Positions 12,823-29,714 of a stretch of 64,000 nt of DNA are shown one piece after another. Numbering within the stretch: position 1 is the stretch's first letter; every line of letters starts with the position of its first letter. The notes beneath the pieces are model-generated. The model was not told where the DNA came from and ran no database searches. It saw only the letters and a list, made by a program, of their open reading frames with translations. The DNA lies in assembly GCF_019879105.1 (NCBI RefSeq), contig NZ_CP082249.1, positions 1,612,001-1,676,000 on the forward strand, given 5' to 3'. This DNA is from Natrinema sp. SYSU A 869 (GTDB lineage Archaea; Halobacteriota; Halobacteria; Halobacteriales; Natrialbaceae). Position numbers and translations under genes: made by a program.

Positions 12823-13581
12823 TCAGGAGTCCGATTCCTGACTCGAGTTGAAGTTTGCGATCGTTTCTTCGGTCACCCCACCTCGTGAGAAGAGCGTAAC
12901 GATGTCGTCGGGGCGGATTTCCGTGTCACCGTGGGGCGTGAGCACGGTATCGTCCCGTTCGATGGCGATAACGAGCGTGTCATCGGTGAGCGCGTCGCAG
13001 CGGGCCGCCTCCTGAATGCTCATTCCGGCGGCCGGCGCATCCCGATCGACGGTCACTTCGGCGACTTCGGCATCACCGGAAAGACTGATGAAGTCAGTGA
13101 GGATGGCGTTCTTCGTCTCGTCGGTGGGTCCGTACGGCGAGTACGCGCATGTCGTCTCGGTCTGGACGAGGACCTCGTCCTCGATCTCGACGCCGAGATC
13201 CGAAAGCGACCGCGCGATCCGCCGCAGATCCTCGGTGTCCTTTCCGACCGCGAGCACGTGCAGATTCCGCCGGCCGGTCATCAACTCCCGAACGTTGGTA
13301 ACCCCCGGGATGATCTGTGCCTGCCGCGCGACCGATTCTCGCTCCGAGACGGGCGCGTTACACATGAAGAGGTTCGTGAGATGCCCCTCTGCCCGTTCGA
13401 AATCGATGCTGGCGTGGTAGCCGGTGATCACGCCCTGTTCCTCGAGTTGTGCGATACGGTTTCGGATCGTTCCGGGAGAGACGTGTACCTCCTCCGCAAT
13501 CGTCGGAGCCGAGGTGTTTCGAGCGTTGCTCATGAGCGCGTGTATGATTCGACGATCGATCTCGTCGAGTCGATAGTCCAT
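12823..13581 (-). CDS. Lrp/AsnC family regulator with C-terminal TrkA_C (RCK_C) domain
   Basis: A 252-residue regulator. Residues 1-55 form the AsnC-type helix-turn-helix (LDEIDRRIIHALMSNAR, SPGTIRNRIAQLEEQGVITG). An Lrp-type ligand domain follows, then at about 165-240 a TrkA_C/RCK_C domain (SIQEAARCDALTDDTLVIAI, IRPDDIVTLFSRGG) that normally binds small ligands in K+ uptake systems. It is transcribed away from an APC permease with UspA domains and is likely to control it. A TATA-like box lies about 27 bp ahead of the ATG. Confidence 0.93.
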   Translation of the reverse strand: MDYRLDEIDRRIIHALMSNARNTSAPTIAEEVHVSPGTIRNRIAQLEEQGVITGYHASIDFERAEGHLTNLFMCNAPVSERESVARQAQIIPGVTNVRELMTGRRNLHVLAVGKDTEDLRRIARSLSDLGVEIEDEVLVQTETTCAYSPYGPTDETKNAILTDFISLSGDAEVAEVTVDRDAPAAGMSIQEAARCDALTDDTLVIAIERDDTVLTPHGDTEIRPDDIVTLFSRGGVTEETIANFNSSQESDS

Positions 13582-22794: not shown

Positions 22795-24272
22795 ATGCTC
22801 GAGCAGGTGCGCGCACGACTTCGCGCGCTCGCGAGGCGACTCCGTCGGTTGGAGCGACGCGAACTCGACGCGTTCGTCCGGTGGATCGAGCACACTGGGA
22901 ACCTCCTGCATCTCTCGATCTTGGTGTTCGTCCCGCTGCTGATCGCCGCGGTGACGTGGTTAGCGAACATGACGGCGGCGATCTCGTTCTTGCTGTTTCC
23001 GCCGTTGGCCTCCGGAACGTACACGCTCTTCGCCAATCCGGAAGGGAAGTACGCCATGCCGTGGACGTTCGTCGGTGGGATGACCGTCGGGGCGCTCTGC
23101 GGGTGGCTCGCAGTTGCGCTCGCGGCCGCGATCGGTCTAGATGGTGGCGGAGCCAGCGCGTCCGGTGCCGCTCTGGGCGTCTTCTTCACCGGCGTTTGTA
23201 CCTGGGCGCTCGATCTCGAGGTGCCGACGGCGTTCTCGACTGCCTTGCTCGTGCTCGTCACTGGGAACGCACAGTTGGCCTACGTCCTCGGCATCGTCGT
23301 CTCGAGTGCGTTCGTCGCGAGTGCGTTCGTCCTCTGGCGGGATCGCTTCTACGAACAGCGCGCTCGGTATCTCTACCAGACGACCAGCGGGGACGACCAC
23401 GTCCTCGTCCCGATGGATGACTGCGAGGAGACTGTCGCCCGCTTCGCCGCGTCGATCGCCGGTGCCCACGACGCCGGGAAGGTGGTCCTCTTCGACGTCA
23501 TTGACGAGGCCGAGGCCGAGCAACGACGCGACGAACCGTCTACGAGTGAGCGTCAGGACGAGACGAGCCCCACCGAACGCGCGGCCAGCGACGCCGCTCG
23601 CCACCTCGAGTCGCTCGCGGCTGATCTCGAGATGGCATACGACGTTCCCTGCGAGGTCGTGGTCGCGGCCGACAGTGGTGAGCGACCTTTTGGGTCGCGA
23701 TCCTCGTCGGAGCGCGGCTCCGACGGCGGACTCTCGGCTGGGCTCACCCTCCAGACTGCACGGCAGCAAAACTGCGACCTCATCGTCGCGCCGTACGCCG
23801 AACGTGAGAGCGGCGGTCTCTCGTCGTTCATCACAGGGCTGTTCGACAGCGAAATCGACGTGATCGCGTTCCATTCGAACGGCACCCCGCGACGGCGATG
23901 GCGGGACAGCCTCGTGGCGGTCCGCGGGGCGGGCGACACTGCCCGTGCGATGCTCGACTTTGCGATCCGGGTGACCGAAGCCGGCAGACCGGTCAGCGTC
24001 CTGACCTGCATCGATAGCGAATCGCGTCGCCGGACCGCCGAGGGTACGCTCGCAGACCTCGTCGATGCGTTCTCGGGACGCTTCGAGACACACGTCGCTA
24101 CCGCGTCGGTCGAATCCTATCTCAGCCGGGCCGCCCCCGGTATGACGTCTGCTTCGTCGGCTCGAGCACCGATCGCTCGGCTGCCTCGCGGTTCGTCTCC
24201 CCGCCGACGTTTCGGAAGCTCAGCGACCTCGAGGCCGACGTGGCGATCGTCCACCGCGGTCGACATCGATAG
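22795..24272 (+). pseudogene. HPP family membrane protein with UspA-like C-terminus, frameshifted near the end
   Basis: It starts at ATG 22795 (MLEQVRARLRALARR). After a basic helix come the HPP membrane helices, with FLLFPPLASGTYTLFANPEG as the signature near residue 65 and PWTFVGGMTVGALCG. Two UspA-like domains follow (HVLVPMDDCEETVARFAAS; NCDLIVAPYAE). In the five-C run at 24134-24138 the frame slips. One more C gives RYDVCFVGSSTDRSAASRF and VAIVHRGRHR, ending at 24272. A hydrophilic linker near residue 300 is encoded by a perfect palindrome. HPP proteins have been linked to nitrite transport in plants; the role here is open. Confidence 0.8.
23682..23725. repeat. Palindromic element inside the HPP-UspA gene
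   Basis: GCGACC and GGTCGC pair at 23682-23698. Then CGTCGGAGC and its reverse complement flank GCG at 23705-23725, again a perfect 9-bp stem with a 3-nt loop. The DNA is read in frame as a Ser/Gly/Arg-rich linker. Confidence 0.55.
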
Positions 24273-24687
24273 CGTACGTACGTTTGTGAATGGAACGGAG
24301 AATCGGTAGCATGGAAACAGTGACGACGTGTGTCCTGCTATCGTGGCGACATGGAATGGCCACGCCCTCCCCAGCCGATTTCTGCTCACGGGCGCGTAGC
24401 GCCCGTTCGCATGGTTCACGGAACCCTCGGTTCCGCGCTAACGCTCACGCCTACCGGGTTCGCTCATCCACAGGAAGACGCTTCGCGTCTTCCACGCCTT
24501 CGTTCACTGCGTTCACGAAGACCTCGCGCAGTATCGTCAGCCGTCCACACTATCGTTCGGACGGTTGACAGCGCGCGTCACTGCATAGCAGGTGATCGAT
24601 CGGAGCGATACATAGGTCACCTGTACTGACTGTGTCTCTCACGATTCAATCTGAATGAAAACCGTTCGACACCCTCCTGCAGAGACC
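24273..24687. other. Long intergenic region with a cluster of palindromes
   Basis: 415 bp without a supported gene between the HPP-UspA gene and the 3' end of the K+ channel gene. The middle is packed with hairpins, listed separately. Short frames here are all Arg/Ser-rich by-products of the repeats. Confidence 0.6.
24389..24520. repeat. Array of small perfect hairpins
   Basis: Four hairpins lie within 132 bp. CGGGCGC-GTA-GCGCCCG is at 24389-24405 (7-bp stem). CGGAACC-CTC-GGTTCCG is at 24419-24435 (7-bp stem). The pair around TTC with arm GGAAGACGC is at 24473-24493 (9-bp stem). CTTCGT/ACGAAG is at 24498-24520 (6-bp stem, 11-nt loop). The first three all have 3-nt loops, as do the palindromes inside deoC and the HPP-UspA gene. 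Confidence 0.7.
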
Positions 24688-25875
24688 TTAATCTCGCTCG
24701 AGAATGCGATCGATCAGCCCGCTCTCGTCGCTGCCGAGCGCCGACCGCACGAGCAGGTGGCCACCGAGCATCGAGGGGCTGATCACGGAATCTGCGCCGG
24801 CACGCTCGAGTTTCTTCGTGTTCTCGCGGTCGGTTGCAGCGGCGACGATGCGCGTGTTCGGTGCAAGTTCGCGCGCGGTGAGAACGGTTAGCGCGTCCTC
24901 GGCGTCGTGGTTCGTGGCGACGAGGATTGCGGCCGCACGGTCGATTTTCGCGCGGCGGAGCGGTTCCTCATCGCTCGGGTCGCCCTTGACGACCGAGATT
25001 CCGCGATCGGTGAGCTCCGTTGCGGCCTCGCGGTCGCTTGTGACGACGACGAACTCCCGGCCGTTGTCCGCGAGTTCGTCGACGATCGGTTCGGTCAGTT
25101 CGCCGTAGCCGAGCACGAGGATGTGGTCGTCGAGGAGTTGCAGTTGTGATTCTGTCATTTTTCCGAGTGTTTTCGAGATGCGGTCTTGGATCAGCGGGCC
25201 GACGAGTGCACCGATGGCGATACCGAAGCTGGCGACGCCCAGAACGAGCACGGACATCGTGAACAACATTCCCTGAACCGATTCGGGGTCGGGTGTCACG
25301 TCACCGTAGCCGACCGTACTCGAGGTGATCAGCGTGAAGTAGAACGCGTCGAGGATGTTGTTGATACCGTCGAAGTGCTCCCGGAGCGCGTAGCCACCGA
25401 TGGTGCCGTACAGCTGGACACCGACGAGCGACGAGCCGGCCGCGATCTGGGTGGTCGAGAGCGAGAGCGGTTTGTCGAATCGATTGCGAGTAAGCAAGAG
25501 AAACGGCATCGCGACCAGCGAGAGGACGACCAGCGGGAGCGAGTACTGGCTCGTTTGGAGCAACCCCTGCGCTGCTGTCAGCGGCAAGAGCAGGAGTGTC
25601 GCCCGCCAGCCCGCCTTGAGCCCGCGCCGGAGTGCGAGCGCACTGCCGACCATCAGGAAGCCGGTGAGTGCGCCGGTGAACCCAGCAGCGTCCTGGACGG
25701 CGTCGGGAACGTACCCCGCGAGCGGCCCATAAACGGTCTCGGTCCCGATGTTGATGACCGCAGTGGCGACTGAGAGCAAAGCGACGAGCAGCACGAGGAC
25801 GACGGCGATCCGTGTCGTGAACACTCGCCGCCAGTTCTCCGGGAGCCGACCTCGAAACGACCGGTCGTCGTCCAT
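24688..25875 (-). CDS. Potassium channel with RCK (TrkA_N) domain
   Basis: A 395-residue protein. Several N-terminal membrane helices lead to a pore with the K+ selectivity filter STVGYGD near residue 190. A TrkA_N Rossmann domain follows (ILVLGYGELTEPIVDELADN, with G-x-G-x-x), ending in VISPSMLGGHLLVRSAL. It is a ligand-gated K+ channel in the cytoplasmic membrane; NAD(H) or a nucleotide is the usual RCK ligand. The extra helices before the pore exceed the minimal two-helix channel. ATG 25875 is preferred over GTG 25881 because GTTTAACT lies 27 bp upstream. It opens a run of K+/stress genes. Confidence 0.93.
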   Translation of the reverse strand: MDDDRSFRGRLPENWRRVFTTRIAVVLVLLVALLSVATAVINIGTETVYGPLAGYVPDAVQDAAGFTGALTGFLMVGSALALRRGLKAGWRATLLLLPLTAAQGLLQTSQYSLPLVVLSLVAMPFLLLTRNRFDKPLSLSTTQIAAGSSLVGVQLYGTIGGYALREHFDGINNILDAFYFTLITSSTVGYGDVTPDPESVQGMLFTMSVLVLGVASFGIAIGALVGPLIQDRISKTLGKMTESQLQLLDDHILVLGYGELTEPIVDELADNGREFVVVTSDREAATELTDRGISVVKGDPSDEEPLRRAKIDRAAAILVATNHDAEDALTVLTARELAPNTRIVAAATDRENTKKLERAGADSVISPSMLGGHLLVRSALGSDESGLIDRILERD

Positions 25876-25898
25876 ACACACCGCTGGGCGGCGATGTT

Positions 25899-25906
25899 AG
25901 TTAAAC
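25899..25906 (-). promoter_or_regulatory. TATA box of the K+ channel gene
   Basis: GTTTAACT on the minus strand, centred 27 bp before the ATG at 25875. Confidence 0.5.
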
Positions 25907-25959
25907 GTCTCCGTCTCGGTTCCGTCCGGAACGGGCGTCATATCAGTGATTGAACCCGA

Positions 25960-26379
25960 TCAGCGGACGACGGTCACCGGAACGGGCGAGCGCTCGAATA
26001 CGGTTTCGGCGACGTCACCGACGAACAACCGACCGATCACGTCACCGCTGTGACTGCCCATCACGACCGCGTCGTAGTCATCGGCGCGGGTGATGATCGC
26101 CCGCGCGGGACGACCGATCGCGACGACGGTATCGATCTCGGCGTCGTGCTCGGTGGCCACCTCTCGAGCGCGGTCGAAGACCTCCGCGGCGCGCTCCGTC
26201 GCGGCCGTCTCAAGGTCGTCCTCGAAGGCGAGACTCACCGCGTCGCCCATCATCATGGATGGCTCGCCGACGACGGTGAGGACGGTGACCGACGCGTCGG
26301 GATGGTTCTCGAGGGCGTAGGTAAGCGCGTGCTCGGAGAGCGTCGAGCCGTCCATCGGAACGAGAACGCGAGCGAGCAT
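25960..26379 (-). CDS. Universal stress protein UspA family
   Basis: A 139-residue single UspA domain: LARVLVPMDGSTLSEHAL at the start, AIGRPARAIITRADDYDAVVMGSH in the middle and SGDVIGRLFVGDVAETV with the ATP-binding GxxxG(S/D) region, ending PVPVTVVR. It is a small cytosolic nucleotide-binding stress protein. It lies 84 bp before the K+ channel gene on the same strand, so the two may be cotranscribed or coregulated. GATTTATCGC about 26 bp upstream is its likely TATA box. Confidence 0.92.
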   Translation of the reverse strand: MLARVLVPMDGSTLSEHALTYALENHPDASVTVLTVVGEPSMMMGDAVSLAFEDDLETAATERAAEVFDRAREVATEHDAEIDTVVAIGRPARAIITRADDYDAVVMGSHSGDVIGRLFVGDVAETVFERSPVPVTVVR

Positions 26380-26448
26380 AGGAGCGCTACCACGCGCGTA
26401 GCGATAAATCCCACTCCGTGCCCGTCGGGATGGGCGGACAGGGACGAG

Positions 26449-26781
26449 TTACGTCGGCAGTTCGATCTCGTGGGCCTCGTCGGTCAATTCTGCAGTCGAA
26501 TTCACCGGCCCTCTGCGGAAGATCGTGTCATAGATCAGGGCGATGCCGATGAGCGCTGCCACCGGCACGGTGATCGCCGTCGAAACCGTCATCACGTAGC
26601 CGATGGCGACGCCCAGAAGCAAACGACACAGGATACCGATACGGACCAGATCGGAGTCCTGAATCCGAACAGGTATGAGATCCCCCTCCGTCTCGAGCGC
26701 GCAAAAACCCGTATCTGGGTCCGACAGAATATCCGGGCCAGGCCGGGAACTCCTCTCGTCGATGCCCGTGTCGGTGCTGAT
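26449..26781 (-). pseudogene. Membrane protein frame with no normal start codon
   Basis: An open frame of 110 residues ends at TAA 26449-26451 and reads like a real protein: polar start, DLIPVRIQDSDLVRIGILC, two hydrophobic helices (VAIGYVMTVSTAITVPVAAL; LIGIALIYDTIF) and an acidic tail. A TAA lies immediately upstream. The first codons read I-S-T-D-T-G, so an ATC stands where ATG would be expected. The only in-frame ATG leaves 47 residues. Either ATC is used, or one base has changed or been misread. I do not recognise the family. It faces away from the RCK_C gene pair. Confidence 0.5.
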
Positions 26782-26808
26782 TTAATGAATCCGCCCCACG
26801 GTCCCACA

Positions 26809-28086
26809 ATGCAATCGCTTCCGGTCAACCTGCTGGTCGAAGTGCTGCTCGGGCTTTACCTCGGGCTCCTGACCGGTATCGTCCCCGCGTTCGTCGCCGG
26901 TTCGCTGGGCTTTCTCGTGCGGTACTTCACCGGCGTTACGCTACCCGGATTCGGTGTCGTCGTCCTCGCGCTCTCGATCGCCAGCGTCCAGGGCGGGCTG
27001 CTCGGTCTCGTCGAACCGACGATCGCGCAGTCGCCGCGACTGCTCATCGCTGTGCTGATCGTCCTCATGCTTGCGCTCTATGCGCACAGTCAGGGCGACA
27101 AGCTCGGAGCCGAACTCCCGCGCCGACTCTCCTTTACTCGCCTCCGACAGCGGACCCTCTCGGCCGACGTCGTCGAACTCGTCGGCTCGGTCGGCCAGGT
27201 TACTGTCCGCCCCACCGGCGAGGTCCGCGACATGGAAGGCTACCCGCCACTCTCTCCCGACCTCCGGGGAGCGCTGAAGGCCGATTCGTGGCGACTGCCG
27301 GCCGATCTCCCCCTCTCGGAACTCGAGGCGCGGCTCGAGGAGCGGCTGCGGACGGACCACGACCTCGCGGATGTCGATGTCGCGATTGACGAACAGGCGC
27401 GGGCGACGATCGTCGCGGCACCGCCGTCCGGAAGCCTTTCGCAACGCGTGCCGGCGGGTCAGCGCGCCGTCTCGATCGCGACGCTCGTCCCCACGGGGGT
27501 CGCCCGGGGCGACGAGGTGACCGTCCGCGCCGGCGAGCGCTCGATCTCCGGGACGGTACTGAGCGCCCGGACCGATATCGACGGCAAACACGACCCGGCC
27601 GCCGCTCCCGGCGCGTCGGACGAAGCGGTAGCGACCGACGGCGGGGAAGACACCGAGTCCGCGATCGACGACTCGAAATCGAACGCGGTGACCGCCGGCG
27701 GCCCGGGCCGCGTGACCGTCGCCGTCGCTCGGCGGGACGTGAAACCGATCCTCGAGGTCGAGTCACCGCGTCTCGTCGTTCGGTCTCGAGGAACGAGTCG
27801 CGAGTTCGAGGCGCTCGCGCTGGTCAAACGCGAGGGGTACGCCATCCGTCGATTCACCGTCGGAGCCACCGGTGCGGACAATGAGACCGGCGGCCTCGAG
27901 CCGACTGATTCGCCGGCGAACGTGACGATCCTCGCGGTGCGACGGCAGGGCAGCGAGACGAGCGGCCGTCGCCACGGCTGGGTGTTCGGTCCCGGCATCG
28001 AACGACGACTCGAGGCCGGCGACGAGGCGTTCGTCGCGGGGCCGGACGACGCGACCGAGGCGTTCGCGGAGGCGATTGCTCGATGA
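26809..28086 (+). CDS. Membrane RCK_C (TrkA_C) protein, first of a tandem pair
   Basis: A 425-residue protein. Three membrane helices at residues 1-95 are followed by a long cytosolic part with TrkA_C-like domains (VELVGSVGQVTVRPTGEV; YPPLSPDLRGALKADSWRLP; VPAGQRAVSIATLVPTGVA). There is no TrkA_N Rossmann domain and no TVGYG filter. A disordered acidic insert lies near 265-290. The next gene has the same layout, so the two probably form a heteromeric membrane complex with ligand-sensing domains. An in-frame ATG at 26785 is an alternative start. Confidence 0.8.
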   Translation: MQSLPVNLLVEVLLGLYLGLLTGIVPAFVAGSLGFLVRYFTGVTLPGFGVVVLALSIASVQGGLLGLVEPTIAQSPRLLIAVLIVLMLALYAHSQGDKLGAELPRRLSFTRLRQRTLSADVVELVGSVGQVTVRPTGEVRDMEGYPPLSPDLRGALKADSWRLPADLPLSELEARLEERLRTDHDLADVDVAIDEQARATIVAAPPSGSLSQRVPAGQRAVSIATLVPTGVARGDEVTVRAGERSISGTVLSARTDIDGKHDPAAAPGASDEAVATDGGEDTESAIDDSKSNAVTAGGPGRVTVAVARRDVKPILEVESPRLVVRSRGTSREFEALALVKREGYAIRRFTVGATGADNETGGLEPTDSPANVTILAVRRQGSETSGRRHGWVFGPGIERRLEAGDEAFVAGPDDATEAFAEAIAR

Positions 28087-28138
28087 GCAGCCGTCACCGT
28101 GCCGGAGACGGCTGTCGTACTGACGGCGGTGATCGCGT

Positions 28139-29401
28139 GTGATAGATCCCATCGTCGCCCAGTTCGTTCCCACCGAAACGCTCCTGGAAGCGGTCGTCCG
28201 AATCCTCGGCTTCGCAGCGCTCGCGGCCGGCGCGGGAGCCAGTGTAGCGTTTCTCTATCGCTGGTACAGCGCCGACGAGATTCCGGAGGGCGTCGCGGTC
28301 CTCGTCGGCGTCGCCCTCATCGCGATTTGGTTGAACACCCAGAGCGCGCTGTCACAAGCGATCATCGGTAACACGGGGCTGACCGAGCCGACCACTGCCA
28401 TCTTCACCATCGCCGCGTTCGTCGGCAGTGCGATCGCCGCCGACGCGGGGCGACGGCTGGGCGACTACCTCGCGCTGGACGTGTTCATGGTCGCGACGCC
28501 GCGGACGATCACCGAGGTCACACAGCTCGTTCGCTCGGCCGGCCGCGTTGTCACGGTCGAGCTCCCGGACGAGATCGGCGATATCGACGGTTACGACGCC
28601 GTCGACGAGTCGGTGAAAACGGACATAGCGGGCCAGACATTACTCTTCCCGCGTCGGCTCACCGTCGAGAAGCTACGCGAGAGACTGATCACCCGCCTCG
28701 AGCGCGACTTCGGGATCGGACACGTCGACGTCGATCTCACCGCGGACGGGACGGTGGAGTACCTCGCGGTCGGGAGCCGACCGGCGGGGATCGGGCCGAC
28801 GCTCGCGCCGGGGACTGTCGCCGTCGCACTGGCGGGTGATCCCGCGGCCGACGCTAGTCCGGGCGACGCGGTCCGGATCTGGGCGCGCGACGACGAGGGC
28901 GGCACCGCCCGGCGGGTGGCCGGCGGCGAACTGCGCGCGACCGCCAACGACACTGCGACCGTCGCCCTTGACGCCGACGACGCCCGCGACCTCAAGCCCG
29001 ATCGCAGCTACCGGCTCGTGACGCTGCCGGGTAGTCCGGACGCCGAACGAGACCTCGTCTCCCTGCTCCGGGCGGCCGACGAGACGGTCACGACCGTCTC
29101 GATCGAGTCGGACGACCCGCTCGTGGACGTGCCGATCGATGCGCTGCCGGTCTTGGTACTCGCACTCGAGCGAGAGACCGCCGAGGGCGACAACGATGGC
29201 GACGAGCGGCTGCCGCTGCCGGCCGGCGATGTGCGGCTCGCTGCCGGCGACGTCGCCTACGTACTCGGTCGCCCGGAGGCGCTTCGACGGGTGACGGAGC
29301 GGACGCTGGTCCAGACGACGGAGCGAAGCGAGGACCCGAACCGAGATCCGGGCCCGGATTCCGATCAGGAGTGGGAGCGGGAACGGACACGGGAGCGGTA
29401 G
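28139..29401 (+). CDS. Membrane RCK_C (TrkA_C) protein, second of a tandem pair
   Basis: A 420-residue protein from GTG 28139, 52 bp after the previous stop. Three N-terminal helices and a cytosolic part repeat the layout of its neighbour (TQLVRSAGRVVTVELPDEIG; LLFPRRLTVEKLRERLITRLE; LAPGTVAVALAGDP). Again there is no Rossmann domain and no pore filter. The C-terminal RCK_C-like unit ends LAAGDVAYVLGRPEALRRV and is followed by an Asp/Glu/Arg tail. Known RCK_C domains bind nucleotides or cyclic dinucleotides; the ligand here is unknown. Together the pair could sense a ligand and gate a partner transporter. Confidence 0.8.
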   Translation: MIDPIVAQFVPTETLLEAVVRILGFAALAAGAGASVAFLYRWYSADEIPEGVAVLVGVALIAIWLNTQSALSQAIIGNTGLTEPTTAIFTIAAFVGSAIAADAGRRLGDYLALDVFMVATPRTITEVTQLVRSAGRVVTVELPDEIGDIDGYDAVDESVKTDIAGQTLLFPRRLTVEKLRERLITRLERDFGIGHVDVDLTADGTVEYLAVGSRPAGIGPTLAPGTVAVALAGDPAADASPGDAVRIWARDDEGGTARRVAGGELRATANDTATVALDADDARDLKPDRSYRLVTLPGSPDAERDLVSLLRAADETVTTVSIESDDPLVDVPIDALPVLVLALERETAEGDNDGDERLPLPAGDVRLAAGDVAYVLGRPEALRRVTERTLVQTTERSEDPNRDPGPDSDQEWERERTRER

Positions 29402-29432: not shown

Positions 29433-29714
29433 ATGCCCACGGAGTGGAAACTGTTCGCCGATCTCGCCGAGCGCGCGGGCGACAAACACGTGACCGTCGA
29501 TGCCGCGGCCGGCGACACCGTCGGGGACGCCTTCGAGGCGCTGCTCGAAGCGGCACCCGAACTCGAGGGCCGCGTGCTCGAGGACGGCGAGTTGCGCTCG
29601 CAGATCAACGTGCTTCGAAACGGAACGAATGTCCTGGTCGAAGAGGACGGAATGGAGACGGTGCTCGAGGAGGGCGACGAGTTGGCGCTGTTCCCACCGG
29701 TCAGCGGCGGCTGA
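29433..29714 (+). CDS. samp1: Small archaeal modifier protein SAMP1 (MoaD-like)
   Basis: A 93-residue ubiquitin-fold protein starting MPTEWKLFADLAERAG and ending in the exposed diglycine FPPVSGG. The length and both ends match haloarchaeal SAMP1, which is joined to protein lysines by the E1-like enzyme UbaA and may also act in molybdopterin sulfur transfer. ATG 29433 is preferred to the longer frame from 29406, because homologues begin at this Met-x-x-x-W-K-L-F motif. The stop of the RCK_C gene is 31 bp upstream. Confidence 0.93.
   Translation: MPTEWKLFADLAERAGDKHVTVDAAAGDTVGDAFEALLEAAPELEGRVLEDGELRSQINVLRNGTNVLVEEDGMETVLEEGDELALFPPVSGG

Follow-up and report, generated by a model that had tools for sequence, protein, structure and literature searches.

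We analyzed a 64,000-nucleotide stretch (hereafter, the window) of the 5.67-Mb haloarchaeal genome of Natrinema sp. SYSU A 869, focusing on two adjacent plus-strand genes for paired membrane proteins with RCK_C domains, denoted A (425 amino acids; 26809-28086) and B (420 amino acids; 28139-29401). Both proteins are built of three predicted helices followed by an alpha/beta domain, a beta-clip region and RCK_C. In A, these parts correspond to residues 6-102 (membrane region; 26824-27114), 115-204 (alpha/beta; 27151-27420), 205-325 (beta-clip; 27421-27783) and 331-424 (RCK_C; 27799-28080), and in B, to residues 12-119 (28172-28495), 124-215 (28508-28783), 216-300 (28784-29038) and 301-390 (29039-29308), all on the plus strand. 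Upstream of A, on the minus strand, lies the gene for a Kch-type K+ channel (24688-25881; hereafter, the channel), with membrane helices, the filter TVGYGD and Pfam matches to TrkA_N (5.6e-31) and Ion_trans_2 (1.1e-13). Downstream of B, on the plus strand, is the gene for the ubiquitin-like modifier SAMP1 (29433-29714), a conserved neighbor which was used as a linkage control.

Domain architecture of A and B

A and B are paralogous, with 27% identity over 172 residues (BLASTP, E 4e-09). AlphaFold models of the monomers, for which 37 A and 38 B sequences were aligned, reached a mean predicted local distance difference test score (pLDDT) of 75.7 for A and 83.8 for B, with predicted template modeling scores (pTM) of 0.32 and 0.39, respectively. 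Given these low pTM values, the individual domains appear credible in the models but their mutual arrangement does not. Three long N-terminal helices were predicted in each protein, the third helix of B falling under the cut-off of a simple hydropathy scan.

The TrkA_C family (PF02080) matched the whole A and B proteins of the window below its curated cut-off (3.1e-04 and 5.3e-05, respectively). At E<=0.01, it was found in 28 of the 37 A members and 35 of the 38 B members, those of the window included, with best values of 1.3e-17 for A and 4e-09 for B. Furthermore, the A profile matched the solved RCK_C domains of KtrA, KhtT and PH0236, and the B profile matched TM1088B (E 3.3e-05) and MthK. 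In structure comparisons, the top match of the B RCK_C domain was KhtT (7ahm; Z 10.2, 2.5 Å over 80 residues), and its match to MthK (Z 9-10) covered approximately residues 243-340 of the latter. KhtT was also the best RCK_C match of A (Z 7.1, 2.3 Å over 69 residues), obtained from a weaker model than that of B. By profile and by predicted fold, A and B belong to the RCK_C domain proteins. Their beta-clip regions resemble RcpC (9gzr; Z 8.5 and 1.9 Å for B, Z 8.2 and 3.4 Å for A, 83 residues each), a protein of the RcpC/CpaB group of the Tad pilus, which lacks RCK_C and differs in membrane part and function. The Pfam RcpC family was detected in 5 of the 37 A members (best 9.8e-04); the list of B families at E<=0.01 does not contain it. 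Because the B profile also matched a SMUBP-2 chain (E 3.9e-05), with the SMUBP-2 1B domain found in 3 of the 38 B members, we claim only a general barrel relation to RcpC, and nothing closer. No fold match was obtained for the membrane or alpha/beta parts, in comparisons that tested mainly the RCK_C and beta-clip regions.

A first-pass annotation of this locus had described the two proteins as three-helix paralogs with RCK_C, devoid of a pore filter and of TrkA_N, and both parts of this description were borne out, the former by BLASTP, Pfam, AlphaFold and the fold matches, the latter by Pfam and motif scans. Neither protein matched Ion_trans_2, and filter-like motifs were scattered inconsistently (4 of 31 A and 1 of 31 B sequences). 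Likewise, there was no TrkA_N match and no consistent GxGxxG motif (4 of 31 A and 6 of 31 B sequences). No Pfam transporter or channel family was matched by A or B members, the NCBIfam scan returned nothing for either protein, and a phmmer search of the PDB with the A sequence alone yielded no credible match. With neither filter nor RCK_N, the pair is not a classical, MthK-type RCK channel.

Sequence conservation is distributed unevenly along the proteins. Among 31 A sequences, mean pairwise identity was 0.65 in the membrane region, 0.59 in the alpha/beta domain, 0.46 in the beta-clip and 0.43 in RCK_C; the membrane region of B reached 0.40. In the A membrane region, the second helix is rich in Gly and Ala, and Y17, P26, Y39, P46, H93 and D97 are conserved. 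This degree of conservation is higher than anchoring alone would require and is compatible with either a pore or a tight interface.

Distribution and genomic neighborhood of the pair

Single queries with A and with B each produced matches in 52 of 61 genomes, including that of the window. The A profile (E<=1e-20) matched 117 of the 145 class genomes, representing 46 of the 58 sampled genera; the 117 genomes include 13 of the window's genus, and the counts are not independent. In the phylum sample (295 genomes, class members included), matches outside the class had E values no better than 8.6e-09 and, among the matches listed, covered only the C-terminal, RCK_C-bearing part. A scan of genome contigs with one A relative yielded 6 loci, one of them labeled Thermoplasmata on a 3.9-kb contig that is perhaps misbinned. 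Wherever both genes were called (63 loci), A and B share a strand, and in 36 of these loci they overlap by exactly 4 bases, a sign of translational coupling; in the window, the two genes are instead separated by a short gap. Since A and B are kept across many genera, they are not chance open reading frames (ORFs). Searches of one open-access library showed no publication on the pair, which has apparently not been studied so far.

Additional copies of the pair were also found. The genome containing the window encodes a second, diverged A/B pair at C3:3546266-3548742. At its locus (L055, C3:3537000-3556500), this second pair has two AAA+ genes of the CDC48 type and one HerA-like gene as flanking neighbors; similar settings recur in other Natrinema loci. 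Four plasmid records carry a relative, annotated as 'TrkA C-terminal domain-containing protein', and two plasmid A/B pairs consist of overlapping genes located beside metal-transport or unrelated genes.

A search for the channel gave matches in 144 of the 145 class genomes, and the linkage counts draw on the 143 for which it was listed. Of the 117 A genomes, 99 have the channel upstream of A at a distance of no more than 1 kb (under 500 bp in 91; median, 126 bp), 97 of them in divergent and 2 in tandem orientation. In the remaining A genomes, 1.9-14 kb separate the two genes in 5 cases, and in 13 the channel is more distant or on another contig. Co-occurrence of the pair with the channel across haloarchaea had been set beforehand as a test of the proposed connection, and a lack of linkage to K+ genes would have counted against it; the 99 genomes with channel and A at most 1 kb apart show that the pair is linked to a K+ gene.

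The pair was also observed next to other transport genes. At one locus (L052), it is accompanied by a Na_H_Exchanger protein with a separate TrkA_C protein, which we refer to as KhtTU-like, and by a protein with both TrkA_N and TrkA_C. On a Natrinema versiforme plasmid (L091), A and B are clustered with a mechanosensitive channel, a Usp protein, two cation:proton antiporters and an AstE-like protein, as well as a CBS protein, an ion transporter and a TrkA protein; this cluster is perhaps a portable K+ and osmotic module.

The other genes of the 6.6-kb region named in the first-pass annotation are all present where it placed them. An HPP-Usp membrane protein (22795-24309, plus strand; Pfam TM_HPP 2.2e-07, Usp 6.3e-05) has relatives adjoining the channel in loci of five families. 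Its gene carries a frame shift near 24140 (24100-24309) that affects the last ~55 codons and leaves the conserved Usp tail in another frame, which may be a sequencing error or reflect a broken gene. Between the channel and A are encoded, on the minus strand, a UspA protein (25960-26379; Pfam 8e-24) and a small two-helix ORF of 57 amino acids with a TTG start (26449-26622). The latter two were searched for in 29 loci with 1.5-kb flanks, 28 from Natrinema and one from a related genus. UspA was detected in 13 of these, 9 times close to full length and 4 times partially, and 5 loci contained the two-helix ORF; wider loci yielded a single weak UspA match, not beside the pair. By alignment inspected by eye, an L018 relative of the small ORF has an earlier start, an ATG at a place where ATA stands in the window. 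UspA and the two-helix ORF occupy this position in only some of the Natrinema loci, and their patchy occurrence rules out that the six genes form one conserved unit. Elsewhere in the window, on the minus strand, a protein encoded at 12823-13581 contains TrkA_C above the cut-off (E 2.6e-10; genome C3:1624889-1625065). Judging from its N-terminus, which reads as an AsnC-type helix-turn-helix, it is likely an RCK_C-controlled regulator.

Candidate roles of the pair

The anatomy of the channel bears on what A and B could do. The window channel consists of a pore and RCK_N, with no TrkA_C match, and all 16 channels scanned contained TrkA_N and none contained TrkA_C at E<=0.01. The window channel aligns to MthK residues 17-253, that is, to the pore and N lobe without the C lobe; its RCK_N matches TM1088A (E 2.7e-05), and its best NCBIfam match is PRK10537 (204 bits versus a cut-off of 425). 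In these alignments and models, the channel (MthK 17-253) and the B RCK_C domain (about 243-340) appear as complementary pieces, which we regard as the strongest mechanistic hint.

We tentatively favor, at somewhat less than even confidence, the interpretation that A and B are obligate partners in a membrane RCK_C pair that regulates K+ flux, with the neighboring channel as its likeliest target at this locus; the linkage suggests a role of the pair in sensing a signal on behalf of the channel. From the observed adjacency, shared architecture, RCK_C domains, haloarchaeal spread and channel linkage, we infer a mechanism in which A and B subunits would assemble into a two-subunit membrane protein, with RCK_C lobes dimerizing on the cytoplasmic side. 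A ligand or the ionic state would alter the conformation of these lobes, and the change would reach the membrane part by way of the beta-clip and alpha/beta domains, setting K+ flux. Since the channel resembles MthK in pore and N lobe and has no C lobe of its own, A and B would act on it as membrane-anchored C lobes in trans. The pair may serve other K+ systems too, because elsewhere it occurs beside cation:proton antiporters or alone.

Several observations weigh against the channel being the target. SAMP1, for which we know of no role in K+ biology, is found beside B in 92 of the 117 A genomes (89 by a 3.5-kb rule and three placed by hand), so that it is nearly as linked to the pair as the channel. 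Thus, much of the linkage between the channel and A can be put down to conserved gene order, and the excess in favor of the channel is modest. Both neighbors are kept in 82 genomes, the channel only in 17 (9 genera), SAMP1 only in 10 (7 genera; SAMP1 kept and the channel not within 1 kb of A) and neither in 8. In 5 of the SAMP1-only genomes the channel is found at 1.9-14 kb, and in the other 5 (G060, G070, G102, G110 and G135), SAMP1 stays with B and the channel is more than 50 kb away or on another contig. Moreover, A is missing from 26 of the 143 genomes used in the channel counts. In 11 of these 26, the channel faces SAMP1 at a distance of 115-460 bp, with A and B missing as a unit, and 6 further genomes show the channel-SAMP1 junction with A located elsewhere. 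Within the window's family, 12 genomes without A have channels with 69-73% identity to that of the window and are in this respect not more divergent than four A-bearing genomes (70-73%); three other A-bearing genomes reach 77-79%. Second-copy A/B pairs lie away from the channel locus, and no K+ channel is annotated closer than 8 kb to either of the two plasmid A/B pairs, the gene table being incomplete. Given the A-less genomes with a channel and the plasmid pairs without an annotated one, neither the channel nor the A/B pair strictly needs the other. Finally, E. coli Kch also lacks RCK_C and, to our knowledge, has no A/B-like partner; therefore, the gap in the channel need not be filled. Conversely, where one neighbor of the pair is gone, it is the channel that stays more often (17 genomes versus 10 for SAMP1), which supports the channel as the target. 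Overall, the original interpretation is supported in part: the pair is real, paralogous, predicted to be membrane-bound and channel-linked, and it carries RCK_C with neither filter nor TrkA_N; the six-gene island is not conserved, and the linkage is largely shared with SAMP1.

A close rival, somewhat less likely in our view, is that A and B themselves transport: their six helices, in multiples, would form a hetero-oligomeric ion pathway gated by RCK_C in cis, and the neighboring channel would be only functionally related. The A membrane region, more conserved than RCK_C and beyond the need of an anchor, is consistent with such a pathway, as are the plasmid pairs and the genomes with a distant channel; furthermore, RCK_C domains fused in cis to transporters are known from CpaA and AspT. 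However, the proteins have no pore filter and match no Pfam transporter or channel family, the B membrane region is only moderately conserved, and the adjacency of the channel would be left unexplained.

Less likely again is the possibility that the pair is not K+-specific, the neighborhood being an old gene order and A and B a membrane-bound sensor of a ligand or of osmotic state acting on something else. The SAMP1 control, the 11 genomes in which A and B are lost with the channel still next to SAMP1, the diverged second pair amid CDC48-type AAA+ and HerA-like genes and the plasmid copies beside metal-transport or unrelated genes all point in this direction. Against it, the pair is found beside different K+ systems in separate contexts (the Kch-type channel, the KhtTU-like antiporter and an Ion_trans channel), and RCK_C domains are typical of K+ and osmolyte regulation.

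Slightly less likely still is a split K+ channel, in which the Kch-type protein would provide the pore and N lobe and a membrane A/B heteromer would give the C lobes in trans, yielding a ring of three gene products with a detachable, losable part.

Known RCK_C systems and the ligand question

In MthK and GsuK-type channels, the pore, RCK_N and RCK_C belong to one protein; the B RCK_C domain superposes on the MthK C lobe and the channel aligns to the pore and N lobe, but here pore plus RCK_N and RCK_C reside on separate proteins, and A and B add three helices and two extra domains. The TM1088A:TM1088B ring of Thermotoga (3l4b, 3jxo), a two-gene gating assembly by entry title, offers a two-gene precedent, the channel and B matching one subunit each. 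Unlike TM1088A and TM1088B, which are soluble, with RCK_N retained in TM1088B, A and B are predicted membrane proteins without RCK_N. KhtT, a K+/H+ antiporter subunit solved with cyclic di-AMP (c-di-AMP) and the top fold match of B, is an RCK_C protein acting on a transporter in trans; it is soluble, and the A protein of the window differs from it in having no VR..Y motif. E. coli Kch, represented by the best NCBIfam match of the channel, similarly has RCK_N without RCK_C.

In c-di-AMP-binding RCK_C domains of the KtrA/KhtT type, the Arg of a (V/I)R..Y(G/D)V-like loop is important. A motif resembling this ligand loop, VR..Y[GD]V, is present in 13 of the 31 A proteins compared, four of which are additional Natrinema copies (L057-L059, L066). 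Of the 8 A proteins sampled at the Natrinema locus beside the channel, that of the window included, none has it. The B alignment reads as being without the loop, as judged from the alignment rather than from a pattern scan. Although the genome containing the window encodes a diadenylate cyclase (DAC), the absence of the motif means that c-di-AMP binding by the A protein of the window is not supported. In Haloferax volcanii, c-di-AMP is reported to be essential under standard growth conditions (PMC6741144).

Two expression records concern genes with related names. For trkA6 of Halobacterium NRC-1, which might correspond to A or B, a 2.0-fold increase in low salt is reported (PMC1971269). Transcripts of kch of Halorubrum kocurii, a gene that might correspond to the channel, are reported to have risen with NaCl (PMC9222508).

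Haloarchaea maintain very high cytoplasmic KCl, need to control K+ flux and make c-di-AMP. With a two-gene membrane RCK_C system present in 46 of 58 sampled genera and usually located beside a channel lacking the C lobe, K+ gating in haloarchaea becomes directly testable.

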